A DNA stretch of 64,000 bases from Natrarchaeobaculum sulfurireducens (lineage in GTDB: Archaea; Halobacteriota; Halobacteria; Halobacteriales; Natrialbaceae): contig NZ_CP024047.1 in NCBI RefSeq assembly GCF_003430825.1, positions 248,001 through 312,000 on the forward strand, in the 5' to 3' direction. The first letter of the stretch is position 1, and each line of letters opens with the position of its first letter. This document shows positions 25,682-29,705 of the stretch, in pieces. Both the position numbers and the translations under genes were made by a program. Below the pieces are notes generated by a model. It made no database searches, was not told the origin of the DNA, and saw only the letters and a program-made list of their open reading frames with translations.

Positions 25682-26197
25682 TCACTCGAGCCCCAGGTCG
25701 CCCTCGAGATCGTCGTAGTCGGGAAACTCGGGCCACTCGCTGGCGACCCAGGCGGCCTGGACGCTCAGATCTGACTCGAGGGCGAAAAACGCGGGTCGGG
25801 GCTCGCTGAGTCCGTTCATGTCGTCGAGGTCGTGGGCGACGCCGTACGTCTCCGCAACCGCGTTTGTGGGATCGCTGAAAACCGCGAACGGACAGTCTTC
25901 GTCCTCGAGAAAGCGTGTGATGGCGTACGGCGTCGAGATCGTAACGCCGATGACGCGGCCGGCACGCTCGTCCCAGTCCCGATCGCGGAGTTCGTCCCAG
26001 ACGTATTTACCGACGAACGAGCCGATCATCGGCGTGAACACGAGGATCGTCGGCCCGTCGGCCTCGCTCGCAAGGGTCGACAGCGTTCGGTCCTCCCAGA
26101 ACTCGTCGGTTACGAGCGGCCGAGTGAAATCGGGCGCGTTGTCGCCGGGTCTGGGGTGGTCGGCTTCGGCTAGCTCGACGACGTCGAAGTCGACCAT
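25682..26197 (-). CDS. Redoxin (AhpC/TSA-like) lacking the peroxidatic cysteine
   Basis: 171 aa thioredoxin-fold protein: PGDNAPDFTRPLVTDEFW near the N-terminus, then LVFTPMIGSFVGKYVWDEL where peroxiredoxins have FxPxxxTxxC. Alignment of that motif puts Gly63 at the peroxidatic position, and the only Cys in the protein is Cys102 (DEDCPF). So it is unlikely to be a working peroxiredoxin; it may act as a structural or binding partner, or use Cys102 differently. Its start overlaps the stop of the glutaredoxin-like gene by one base (TGATG), a tight pairing that implies joint function in thiol chemistry. Confidence 0.85.
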   Translation of the reverse strand: MVDFDVVELAEADHPRPGDNAPDFTRPLVTDEFWEDRTLSTLASEADGPTILVFTPMIGSFVGKYVWDELRDRDWDERAGRVIGVTISTPYAITRFLEDEDCPFAVFSDPTNAVAETYGVAHDLDDMNGLSEPRPAFFALESDLSVQAAWVASEWPEFPDYDDLEGDLGLE

Positions 26198-26559
26198 CAG
26201 GTGTCACCTCCGCTAGCGTCGCGGTCTGCGGCTGCCGGTTGCTCTCCGACGCTCGTCTCCGTCCCGTCGCCGTAGGTCGACTCGAGGTAGTCGACGATGT
26301 TCGCGCTCTCGGCCATCGTCACGCCCGTGTCCTCGTCGACGATCACGGGGACCGTGCGGACGCCGGCGACGCGCTTGACGACGTCTCGCTTCGAGTGCAG
26401 CGGCTCGACGAACCGGGAGCGATACTCGAGGTCCAACTCCTGCAGCGTCCGGGTGACGCGCTCGCAGTACGGACACGCCTGCAGCCGGTAGAACGTGATC
26501 GGCGGGTCGGTCCTGTCGTCTCCCCCGCGACCGTCTCCTCGGCCGGTACTCGCGTTCAT
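26197..26559 (-). CDS. Glutaredoxin / GST N-terminal-like protein
   Basis: 120 aa from ATG 26559. A glutaredoxin fold with the CPYC redox motif at residues 29-32 (FYRLQACPYCERVTRTLQEL), the cis-Pro in VRTVPVIVD and the glutathione-site-like TMAESANIVDYLES that follows. The C-terminal 30 residues are acidic and disordered. Halophiles use gamma-glutamylcysteine in place of glutathione, so its thiol partner probably differs from bacterial glutaredoxins. It is followed directly by the redoxin (1-base overlap). Both Cys of the dithiol motif are intact, so it may supply the redox chemistry for the pair. Confidence 0.87.
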   Translation of the reverse strand: MNASTGRGDGRGGDDRTDPPITFYRLQACPYCERVTRTLQELDLEYRSRFVEPLHSKRDVVKRVAGVRTVPVIVDEDTGVTMAESANIVDYLESTYGDGTETSVGEQPAAADRDASGGDT

Positions 26560-26663
26560 GGCCCACTGTATCGGGACTCGATAGATAAACGTGGCGTCCG
26601 CGCCGGCAGTCGCGAGAACGGCGAAGACCACGTGTGCGGGGGTGTGCCCGCGCGACCGGACGG

Positions 26664-26670
26664 TTTAATA
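26664..26670 (+). promoter_or_regulatory. TATA box upstream of the 26695 gene
   Basis: TTTAATA lies 25-31 bp before the ATG at 26695. This spacing suggests a leaderless transcript for the small membrane protein. Confidence 0.55.
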
Positions 26671-26694
26671 CAGTCGACGTGGGCGGTAGAACTA

Positions 26695-26907
26695 ATGTGG
26701 GGTAGAGTTGCGGAAGGAATACTCTTCATCGGCATCGGCGTCGGCATCCTACTGTACTTCGCGTTCGTTCACGGCGATCCGCTGAGCACGACCGGGTACA
26801 GAGCGACCCGCACGCCCGTGTTCGGTGTTCTGGTAGGGGTCGCGAGCCTCCTGTTCGGCGCGGCACTGGTACTCGACGTCGGTCCCGACTGGCTGCTCGA
26901 GGATTGA
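26695..26907 (+). CDS. Small membrane protein, unknown function
   Basis: 70 aa with two hydrophobic helices: VAEGILFIGIGVGILLYFAFV and PVFGVLVGVASLLFGAALVL, separated by a hydrophilic loop (HGDPLSTTGYRATRT). The C-terminus is acidic (GPDWLLED). An upstream TATA element supports the ATG at 26695. No family name recalled; it resembles many two-helix haloarchaeal miniproteins. It is convergent with the halocin-like gene (stop at 27028), so it is the nearest gene on that side and might be considered as a candidate immunity or transport helper, although nothing in its sequence proves this. Confidence 0.72.
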   Translation: MWGRVAEGILFIGIGVGILLYFAFVHGDPLSTTGYRATRTPVFGVLVGVASLLFGAALVLDVGPDWLLED

Positions 26908-27027
26908 GCGCCACCCCCGAGACGCTCGATATTCCCTGCTGGATTCCGTCTGCGACGGTATGCTCGCACGGGCGTTACTACCCCGATCGGCGGGTGCACA
27001 ACACTCTGCGTCCGGAAACGATACCGT

Positions 27028-27990
27028 CTAGCCGTCGATTGCACAGTCGGCACACGCCACGCAACTCGTGATGTTGCTGAGGCTGCAAAAGGTGTAGAAG
27101 CACGCGACACAGAGGATGGCACCAGCGCCGGTCGAACCGGTTGCACAGACGGGCCGGCAGCGATGACACTCCGTCAACAAGCTGATTAGGTAGTCTGCGC
27201 ATTCGGTACAGGGCTGTCCACACGGGGAGACGAGATCCCCGAGTTCCGCGGCGAGAATTCCCGATACTTGGTCGATAATGATGTCCCGCGCCAGGTTTTG
27301 CGATTCGACGATCGGCACCGCTTCGGAATCCTCGTCGATCGCGTGCGCCGAATCTTGCAGCGCTACTTCGTCTCCGTCTGCCACGTCGATCAGGTACGAT
27401 TCTACGTCGAAATCCCGTCCGTCCGAAGCGCTCGTGAAAATATCGGCCCTGAACCCGTCGATGTCGGTCCCGGTGTAAACCGTCGACGCGTCCCCCTCTA
27501 TCGGAACCGTCGAGAGAGCCTTCCGCTCCTCTCGAGGAGTGGCGGCACGTCTAAATACTGCTTCGGATTCACCCCCCGATAGCGCGGCGTGGGTGTTATT
27601 TGGCACGTCTCGATACGTCGGCGGGGTGTTCGCAGTGTTTCCATTTTTGAAGTGGAAGACGGCATCTACGTCATCGTCGCCTTCTCCGACGCGAAGGGTT
27701 CCGTACTCGAACTCCACTTTCGTCACTACGGTATCGTTCCCTTCTCCGATCGTTTTCTGTTCTACGTCCGCATCGGTCGGGATCCCTTCCTCTCCCAGCT
27801 CCTCGAGGATCGATCGCACTTCGGGAACTTCGGTTAGGTGCGCTATCTCCGAGACCCGTGCATCCTTCCAGGCGGAGACCGCTCCGCTGAGTCCGGTTAT
27901 TCCTCCGACCCCTACGCTCGCACCGACCGCGGTCTTTCGCAACACGTCCCGCCTGTTCGTTCCGCTCGATTGGTTAGTTTGCTGTCCCAT
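27028..27990 (-). CDS. Tat-exported halocin C8-like precursor with 12-Cys C-terminus
   Basis: 320 aa in three parts. Residues 1-40 are a twin-arginine signal (TNRRDVLRKTAVGASVGVGG, then ITGLSGAVSA). Residues 41-256 contain no Cys and are acidic: helix SEVPEV-like RSILEELGEEG, strands KVEFEYGTLRVG, VDAVFHFKNG, and a later FDVESYLIDVADGDEV. Residues 257-320 carry all twelve Cys (257, 261, 264, 275, 278, 282, 294, 297, 302, 310, 313, 316) and a hydrophobic Gly/Ala centre. This domain order, Tat leader then an immunity-like middle and a small Cys-rich hydrophobic tail, is that of halocin C8 precursors, in which the N-terminal part (HalI) gives immunity and the tail is released as the peptide antibiotic. 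C8 has ten Cys, here there are twelve. No dedicated exporter is adjacent. Confidence 0.7.
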   Translation of the reverse strand: MGQQTNQSSGTNRRDVLRKTAVGASVGVGGITGLSGAVSAWKDARVSEIAHLTEVPEVRSILEELGEEGIPTDADVEQKTIGEGNDTVVTKVEFEYGTLRVGEGDDDVDAVFHFKNGNTANTPPTYRDVPNNTHAALSGGESEAVFRRAATPREERKALSTVPIEGDASTVYTGTDIDGFRADIFTSASDGRDFDVESYLIDVADGDEVALQDSAHAIDEDSEAVPIVESQNLARDIIIDQVSGILAAELGDLVSPCGQPCTECADYLISLLTECHRCRPVCATGSTGAGAILCVACFYTFCSLSNITSCVACADCAIDG

Positions 27991-28011
27991 ACAGTAGAAA
28001 ATTAATACATT

Positions 28012-28019
28012 CTATATAG
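28012..28019 (-). promoter_or_regulatory. TATA box of the halocin-like gene
   Basis: CTATATAG, centred about 26 bp before the ATG at 27990, within the AT-rich stretch 27997-28025. It is one of the clearest TATA elements in the window. The remaining 28021-28310 interval up to the next gene contains no coding frame I can support. Confidence 0.65.
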
Positions 28020-28310
28020 TATTTTCTGCAGATGCGAACGGGAAACATACGGCCGTACTCGAGACTTGGATAGAGTGGCGAAGGCTCGGGATGAAACGGG
28101 TGTAAGAAACGGAAAACCGGGTGCCGTAGCGACGAAAGATGGTCGTTGTAATAGGGCGGGGCGCTCTCAGGAGCGTAACTGCACGGTTCGCATTGCGAGA
28201 CTTCGGCGTGACAACCGCGAGGTCCGCCGGCGGACCGATTCGAGGGGGTGCGCGAGGCGAGCGCGTTTCATAAAGCGTTATTCGCTCCGGGTGCGAACGT
28301 GTCACAGCTA

Positions 28311-29705
28311 ATGGCGCTGTCTCTGCTGCTGGAACTTTCGGTTCCGCTAGCCGCGTACGATCTTCCCTTCGTGGATCTGGCGGTTGATCAGTCCACCGTG
28401 ACCACCGTGGGAGTGCTCGCGGTGATCGTCCTCATCGGACTCTCCGGGTTCTTCTCCTCCTCGGAGATCGCGATGTTCAACCTGCCAAAACATCGCCTCG
28501 AGGGGATGGTCGACGACGACGTGGAGGGGGCAGAGCTGGTCAAACAGCTCAAAGAAGACCCGCATCGGCTGCTCGTGACGATTCTCGTCGGGAACAACAT
28601 CGTCAATATCGCGATGTCGTCGATCGCGACTGCCTTGCTCGGGCTCTATTTCGGTGGGCTAGTGGCGGTCGTTCTCGCGACGTTCGGCATCACAGCAATC
28701 GTCCTGCTGTTCGGCGAGAGCGTTCCGAAATCCTACGCGGTCGAAAACACCGAATCGTGGGCTGTCCGCATCTCGAAGCCGCTGAAAGCGACGGAGTACC
28801 TGCTGTTTCCGCTCATTGTTCTTTTCGATTACCTCACTCGCCAGGTCAACCGGCTGACGGGGTCGACCGGAGCGATCGAGACGCCCTACGTCACTCGCGA
28901 CGAGATCCAGGAGATGATCGAATCCGGCGAACGCGAGGGCGTTCTCGAGGAAGAAGAACACGAGATGCTCACCCGCATCTTCCGGTTTAACAACACGATC
29001 GTCAAGGAAGTGATGACGCCACGCCTCGACATCACGGCGGTTCCGACGGGCACCGACATCGACGAAGCCATGGAAACCTGTATCCAGAGCGGCCATGCGC
29101 GTATCCCGATCTACGAGGGGAGCCTCGACAACGTATTGGGCGTCGTCCACATCCGTGACCTCGTCCGGGATCTGAACTACGGCGAGACCGAAACCGACGA
29201 CCTCGAGCTCGGCGACCTTATCCAGCCGACGTTACACGTTCCCGAGTCAAAAAACGTCGACGAAATGCTCTCCGAGATGCGTGAAAACCGCATGCACATG
29301 GCCATCGTGATCGACGAGTTCGGCACCACCGAAGGCATCGTCACGATGGAGGACCTGATCGAAGAGATCGTCGGCGAGATCCTAGAAGGAGGAGAGGACC
29401 TCCCGATCGAGGAACTCGACGAACGGACCGTCCTCGTCAGGGGCGAAGTCAACATCGAGGAGGTCAACGAAGCCCTGGAGATCGAACTTCCCGAAGGCGA
29501 GGAGTTCGAGACGATCGCTGGCTTCATCTTCAACCGCGCCGGCCGACTCGTCGAGGAAGGTGAAGAGATCACCTTCGACGACGTCCGTATCACCGTCGAG
29601 AGTGTCGAGAACACCCGTATTATGAAAGCTCGACTGCACAAATTCGAAGAACCAGTCGACGATGAGGTGCCGGAAGCCAACGGTACCCCAGACGCCTCCG
29701 AGTAA
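28311..29705 (+). CDS. CNNM/CorC-type DUF21-CBS membrane protein
   Basis: 464 aa from ATG 28311 (GTG at 28299 is also possible). The N-terminal DUF21/CNNM membrane domain (about residues 1-200) has four hydrophobic segments, [17 protein letters not shown], and [14 protein letters not shown]. Two CBS motifs follow ([49 protein letters not shown] in pieces), then a C-terminal CorC_HlyC transporter-associated domain ([34 protein letters not shown] in pieces). These proteins are Mg2+ (or divalent-ion) transport or sensing factors; the CBS pair probably binds ATP or adenosine derivatives. Complete and single. Confidence 0.93.

Follow-up and report, generated by a model that had tools for sequence, protein, structure and literature searches.

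The window analysed here, a stretch of 64,000 nucleotides from Natrarchaeobaculum sulfurireducens, carries a precursor gene (27028..27990, minus strand) that is real, conserved and functional, and its product ends in a tail of 12 cysteines predicted to be closed by six nested disulfides. We consider it fairly probable that this product is a Tat-exported, self-contained precursor, the tail of which would be set free by a protease and would act as a microhalocin-type peptide on related haloarchaea. On the wider reading our confidence is evenly balanced: the gene would belong to an unnamed, polymorphic family of haloarchaeal antimicrobial precursors with a common middle and interchangeable nested-zipper tails (four to seven rungs, six here), and halocin C8 would stand for a second family, unrelated in sequence, with the same zipper in the pattern 1-10, 2-9, 3-8, 4-7, 5-6.

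Layout of the precursor and its promoter

The open reading frame runs from an ATG at 27990 to a stop codon at 27028-27030 and encodes 320 amino acids; a spurious ORF is ruled out because it is conserved in relatives. The preliminary description had divided the protein into a Tat leader, an acidic cysteine-free middle and a tail with 12 cysteines, and both the reading frame and the composition bear this out. The leader (residues 1-40; 27871..27990, minus strand) is conserved in the family. It contains NRRDVLRK at residues 12-19 with the twin arginines at 13-14, a hydrophobic stretch, and a plausible cleavage site AVSA/W at residues 37-41, with cleavage likely after AVSA. Judged by this twin-arginine signal, the window protein qualifies as a Tat substrate; the model TIGR01409 gives it 15.9 bits, slightly below the cut-off of 16.7, and matches 7 of 20 family members. 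The middle (residues 41-256; 27223..27870, minus strand) has 48 Asp/Glu against 16 Lys/Arg, a pI of 4.1 and no cysteine. The tail (residues 257-320; 27031..27222, minus strand), with a GRAVY of +0.73, holds all 12 cysteines of the protein, at positions 257, 261, 264, 275, 278, 282, 294, 297, 302, 310, 313 and 316. At the cysteine frequency of the window's larger called ORFs, 0.67%, the probability of 12 cysteines among 64 residues by chance is ~2e-14. This segment, with an approximate N-terminus, is the presumed released peptide.

Upstream of the gene lies an AT-rich promoter in a window with a GC content of 63%. Within this AT-rich stretch, a TATA-like box CTATATAG (28012..28019, minus strand) is centred ~25 nt before the ATG, a distance that fits a leaderless haloarchaeal transcript and supports the predicted start codon. 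An 8-mer with >=7 A/T occurs at the right upstream distance in 28 of 38 family genes.

A common middle with tails of different cysteine number

Relatives of the precursor occur in 19 of the 125 genomes of the taxonomic family. In a profile search over 391 genomes of the class, 137 had a match at E <=0.001, many of the matches covering the leader region alone. The set that we analysed consists of 42 full-length members, plus one plasmid copy and one split copy. In all 42, leader and middle are poor in cysteine (0 or 1) and the tail is rich in it, with 8, 10, 12 or 14 cysteines, the exception being a tail that has an additional cysteine 44 residues upstream. Tails with 12 cysteines are present in both halves of the family tree. 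A profile of the middle domain detects members whose tails escape the 12-Cys profile, marking the middle as the shared scaffold of the family. Overall, the family looks polymorphic, with tails of 8-14 cysteines on a shared middle. The genome of N. sulfurireducens itself holds one paralogue with 37% identity and the same 12-Cys pattern (C3:765316-766311) and a more distant one with 8 cysteines (C1:53776-54576).

Searches against known families returned little. For 20 members, Pfam and NCBIfam gave Tat signals and chance matches and nothing else, and neither the tail nor the middle of the window protein matched a family in either collection. No relatives were found in the phage records and viral contigs searched, and a single-protein scan of genome contigs gave one match, which was spurious. 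Solved structures gave no match either, by sequence search or by fold search with a weak model of the tail.

The tail can be either the best or the worst conserved part of these proteins, depending on the pair compared. In the orthologue pair L006/L010 no other part is conserved as well as the tail (dN 0.028, dS 0.47, dN/dS ~0.06), which is under strong purifying selection. In the tandem pair at L013, identity is 81% between the middles (dN 0.11, dS 0.47) and 44% between the tails (dN 0.54, dS saturated). The two comparisons fit an effector tail that would be conserved inside lineages and renewed between copies, atop a common middle. Since such similar middles serve strongly different tails at L013, a tail-specific immunity role of the middle becomes less obvious. 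One further member (L014:1498-2352) is split by a single in-frame stop between middle and tail, into 184 aa without cysteine and then 100 aa with 10 cysteines; this copy is either a pseudogene or a case of separate translation.

Paired loss of cysteines predicts six nested disulfides

The tails were assigned to 12 cysteine slots by spacing alone, and 40 tails fit. L089, L107, L016 and L085 lie beyond the fit limit of the script and were left out of the slot counts. Among the 40 tails, the missing slots were C2 and C11 in 15, C4 and C9 in 5, and C6 and C7 in 5, always jointly except in L004. C1, C3, C5, C8 and C10 are invariant, and C12 is absent in L004 alone. In L004, the sole exception to paired loss, the last two cysteines are gone and the C-terminus is aberrant; all three frames of this C-terminus were read and no obvious frameshift was found. 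Inspected by eye, the 8-cysteine tails of L089 and L107 are compatible with the loss of two pairs, C2+C11 and C6+C7.

To place these losses, a tree was built from leader and middle, with the tails excluded. It contains about ten state changes: 5 (6) for C2/C11, 2 for C4/C9 and 3 for C6/C7. On well-supported branches there are two independent contrasts per pair, all concordant, and the control pairs shown lack such concordance. For a single pair, the contrasts are too few for a sign test to become significant. The evidence from co-loss is strong because all three pairs are complementary (i+j=13). Under a random-pair model of paired changes, the probability that ten changes are all nested is ~4e-11, and that six of six are nested is ~6e-7.

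The simplest reading of the co-loss is that C2-C11, C4-C9 and C6-C7 form disulfides, and nesting adds C1-C12, C3-C10 and C5-C8. We regard this as a strong inference from the aligned tails. In the window protein, the disulfides predicted in this way from paired cysteine loss in relatives are C257-C316, C261-C313, C264-C310, C275-C302, C278-C297 and C282-C294. As C1, C3, C5, C8, C10 and C12 hardly vary, their pairing might depart from full nesting. Judging by the literature that we found, the prediction of nested disulfides is a new one; a search for experimental disulfide connectivity gave none.

The spacings 3-2, 2-3, 2-4 and 2-2 place the cysteines of each arm roughly on one face of a helix. 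AlphaFold models from single-sequence input were poor for the full protein and for the tail (pLDDT 36 and 62.5), the tail being modelled as all-helical. These models hint weakly at a stapled hairpin that is probably helical. Small antimicrobial helical hairpins with nested disulfides as staples are known from plants, the alpha-hairpinins. The likeness is one of description, and the plant peptides differ in having two disulfides only and in coming from another kingdom.

The pattern of loss also bears on whether the tail might instead bind a metal or cluster, as a metallothionein-like domain. Many cysteines and CxxC spacings would suit such a domain, but the cysteines are lost pairwise and not in fours, Tat export ends in the oxidising outside, and there is no similarity to metal- or cluster-binding families. 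We hold this explanation to be very improbable.

Relation to halocin C8

Halocin C8 is the best-studied archaeal antimicrobial, and as founder of its family it is a proven one. Its precursor (ProC8 = HalI + HalC8) resembles the window protein in having a Tat leader, an acidic cysteine-free middle and a C-terminal, hydrophobic, cysteine-rich peptide of 60-80 aa, so that the layout noted in the preliminary description does equal that of halocin C8 precursors. The same description had gone further and placed the protein among relatives of halocin C8, with two extra cysteines and a different disulfide set. Only the last of these points agrees with our results, as the predicted pairs do differ.

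Membership in the halocin C8 family is contradicted by the searches. The preliminary description had named a tail unmatched by halocin families as the outcome that would refute it, and with TIGR04449 this outcome was obtained; nor was there a match to any proven halocin by sequence or profile. TIGR04449 (cut-off 24 bits) did not match the whole window protein, the tail or the middle up to E 10. The same model is above its cut-off in 51 of 392 genomes of the order, and it scores 28 bits on a C8-type gene in the same genome (G000:C3:878473-878694). A profile-profile comparison of the two families aligned the Tat leader region alone, with hhalign probabilities of 0.1% for the middles and 0.8% for the tails. 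No similarity of the middle to the C8 middle was detectable, and at the sequence level homology to HalI is not indicated. As yardstick for the tail we used the C8 sequence at L030, which we take to be identical to halocin C8. The cysteine spacing of the window tail, 3-2-10-2-3-11-2-4-7-2-2, differs throughout from that of C8, 2-7-3-7-13-7-8-8-5, and does not fit the common C8-type spacing 2-7-3-7-(9 to 14)-7-(7 or 8)-(7 to 9)-(5 to 7). Because of this, and because tails with 8, 10, 12 or 14 cysteines exist in this family, with the 12-Cys type represented on both sides of its tree, the label of two extra cysteines is misleading. The genetic surroundings differ as well: each of three C8 loci inspected has a gene of ~270 aa upstream and a gene for a membrane protein of ~535 aa nearby, neither of which is present at the window locus. 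The C8-type peptide encoded in the same genome (C3:878473-878694) has 10 cysteines with the spacing 2-7-3-7-11-7-10-12-5, and this genome holds at least four Cys-tail precursors from two families.

What the two families do have in common, beyond the layout, is a nested pattern of cysteine co-loss. The number of cysteines is even in 59 of 61 distinct tails of the C8 family. With the spacings read by eye, C3 and C8 are jointly missing in L152, L157 and L160; the outermost pair, C1 and C10, is missing in L141, L151 and L159; and L050 and L155, which belong to a subtype with shifted inner cysteines, lack C5' and C6. The exceptions are L149 (9 cysteines), L135 (11) and L170, and L158 is degenerate. 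This suggests that a nested topology, a feature proposed here and no established hallmark of the C8 family, is probably common to two families unrelated in sequence, for which distant homology and convergence are both possible. A solved structure for halocin C8 was sought, and none was found.

A plasmid locus brings the two families close together. The copy on the Haloferax larsenii plasmid pHl5678-1 (WP_258303652.1), annotated as 'hypothetical protein', is next to a gene for an M48 protease and 3.4 kb away from an annotated 'halocin C8-like domain-containing protein'. At this locus (L124; NZ_CP078064.1, 144722-163762), the member, the M48 protease, a rhomboid protease, the C8-like gene and a TATA-binding protein all lie within ~8 kb, and a gene of 68 aa lies directly 3' of the halocin C8-like gene. 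Strain NCIM 5678, which carries the plasmid, is listed in a review as producer of halocin HA3 (13 kDa) (PMC11509114).

It could be argued from the common layout, from nested co-loss in both families, and from their co-occurrence in one genome and near each other on one plasmid, that the window protein is a true halocin C8 member, with the same fold and a HalI-type immunity middle, that has diverged past sequence detection. A model that finds the C8-type copy in the same genome yet misses the window protein even at E 10 argues against this, as do the unrelated middle and tail profiles (0.1% and 0.8%), the different cysteine spacing and the missing ~270-aa and ~535-aa genes. We think this divergence scenario unlikely, and favour a separate family.

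Genomic neighbourhood and candidate partners

The divergent upstream neighbour of the precursor gene encodes a CNNM/CorC-type protein (28248-29705). Downstream are a convergent 70-aa protein with two TM segments, a glutaredoxin-like protein and a peroxiredoxin. In several genera, family genes have peroxiredoxin, glutaredoxin and CNNM genes close by (window 25682-29705; L097, L094, L090). Such shared surroundings suggest an old chromosomal position for the precursor, and where they are common to loci across genera they fit a stable housekeeping role equally.

This is the point at which a different function deserves weight, namely that the tail remains attached to a secreted protein as a disulfide-rich domain for structure, adhesion or the cell surface. 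Some members do keep their chromosomal surroundings across genera, and no bacteriocin cassette surrounds the window gene. Against a surface domain speak the variation of the tails in cysteine number and sequence over a common middle, the tandem copies with diverged tails, and the patchy occurrence of the family (19/125 genomes). On balance, we judge a permanently attached tail to be decidedly unlikely.

As stated in the preliminary description, no dedicated exporter lies beside the gene, and a peptide-modifying enzyme is likewise absent there. The latter observation counts against the tail being a RiPP substrate (a lanthipeptide or other thioether peptide) that is matured by an enzyme before export. 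A cysteine-rich C-terminus would be in line with such a substrate and archaeal lanthipeptides exist (PMC10105419), but PF05147 (LanC-like) has no match in the whole genome (G000), and the long middle and the Tat leader are out of keeping with it. Enzymatic maturation of this kind appears extremely improbable.

Next to the window gene we found no conserved gene for immunity, export or processing. The convergent 70-aa two-TM protein (26695..26907, plus strand), immediately downstream, is a weak candidate for a partner or immunity protein. Its position is suggestive, yet relatives of this protein are not found beside precursors of this kind, and we rejected it as the cognate immunity protein. Across the family, small genes with 2-4 TM segments were found near 16 of 28 family genes (15 by script plus one added by hand) versus 22 of 92 controls (p 0.002, with related loci partly retained), mostly downstream.

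Another candidate partner or immunity gene emerged from the loci of relatives. It encodes an unnamed membrane protein family of ~300 aa with the signature PEYTGENRCxxCTxxN ... RGYLVPGTPxLTKRY ... VESCC, which matches no known family. Copies are found at L088:2086-3045, L089:7852-8757, L105:4184-5089, L106:5967-6809, L107:8675-9676 and L108:351-1217, and also at L034, L043, L077 and L163. In ten loci the gene adjoins a precursor, with both families represented, against a rough expectation of ~0.3 in the sequence examined at about 1-7 copies per genome. It is absent from the window and flanks two other precursors of the same genome, and may serve the window precursor in trans.

An M48 (HtpX-type) metalloprotease gene adjoins members in three independent settings, at L090, at the syntenic loci L096/L098/L100 and at the plasmid locus L124. 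We rejected M48 as a dedicated processing enzyme, since M48 genes are frequent, with 6-13 in each genome, and the neighbourhood of the window gene contains none.

A model for export, release and action

In the mechanism that we propose, the precursor would leave the cell by the Tat route, which would make folding and oxidation possible before or during export. The tail (about residues 257-320) would fold into an antiparallel, probably helical hairpin with the six nested disulfides as a zipper. The middle would serve across the family as an escort or holding domain, preventing activity of the tail and keeping it in solution at high salt, and it may also be involved in immunity. An extracellular or membrane protease would then sever the tail from the acidic middle, freeing a compact, hydrophobic peptide that would attack the envelope of competing haloarchaea. 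The genome contains six S8 protease genes. Among haloarchaeal precursors, activation by proteolysis is on record for HmHapP (HFX_0892), a secreted precursor that a halolysin-type protease activates outside the cell and that can serve as a model for release (PMC12893001). The likeness is again by description: the active peptide of HmHapP is the N-terminal part with two helices, and those parts of the source that describe it give no sign of a cysteine-rich tail (PMC12893001).

Sequence alone thus yields a precise structural prediction, 64 residues with six nested disulfides. By the same reasoning the disulfide pattern of halocin C8 can be predicted as well, and ordinary peptide chemistry is enough to test the two predictions. 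With its zipper of disulfides, a compact peptide stable at molar salt would make a useful scaffold. To our knowledge, the genes of archaeal antimicrobials are known in very few cases. If our reading is true, dozens of candidate halocin genes would be added to them, from a family whose sole annotated copy found is named 'hypothetical protein'.
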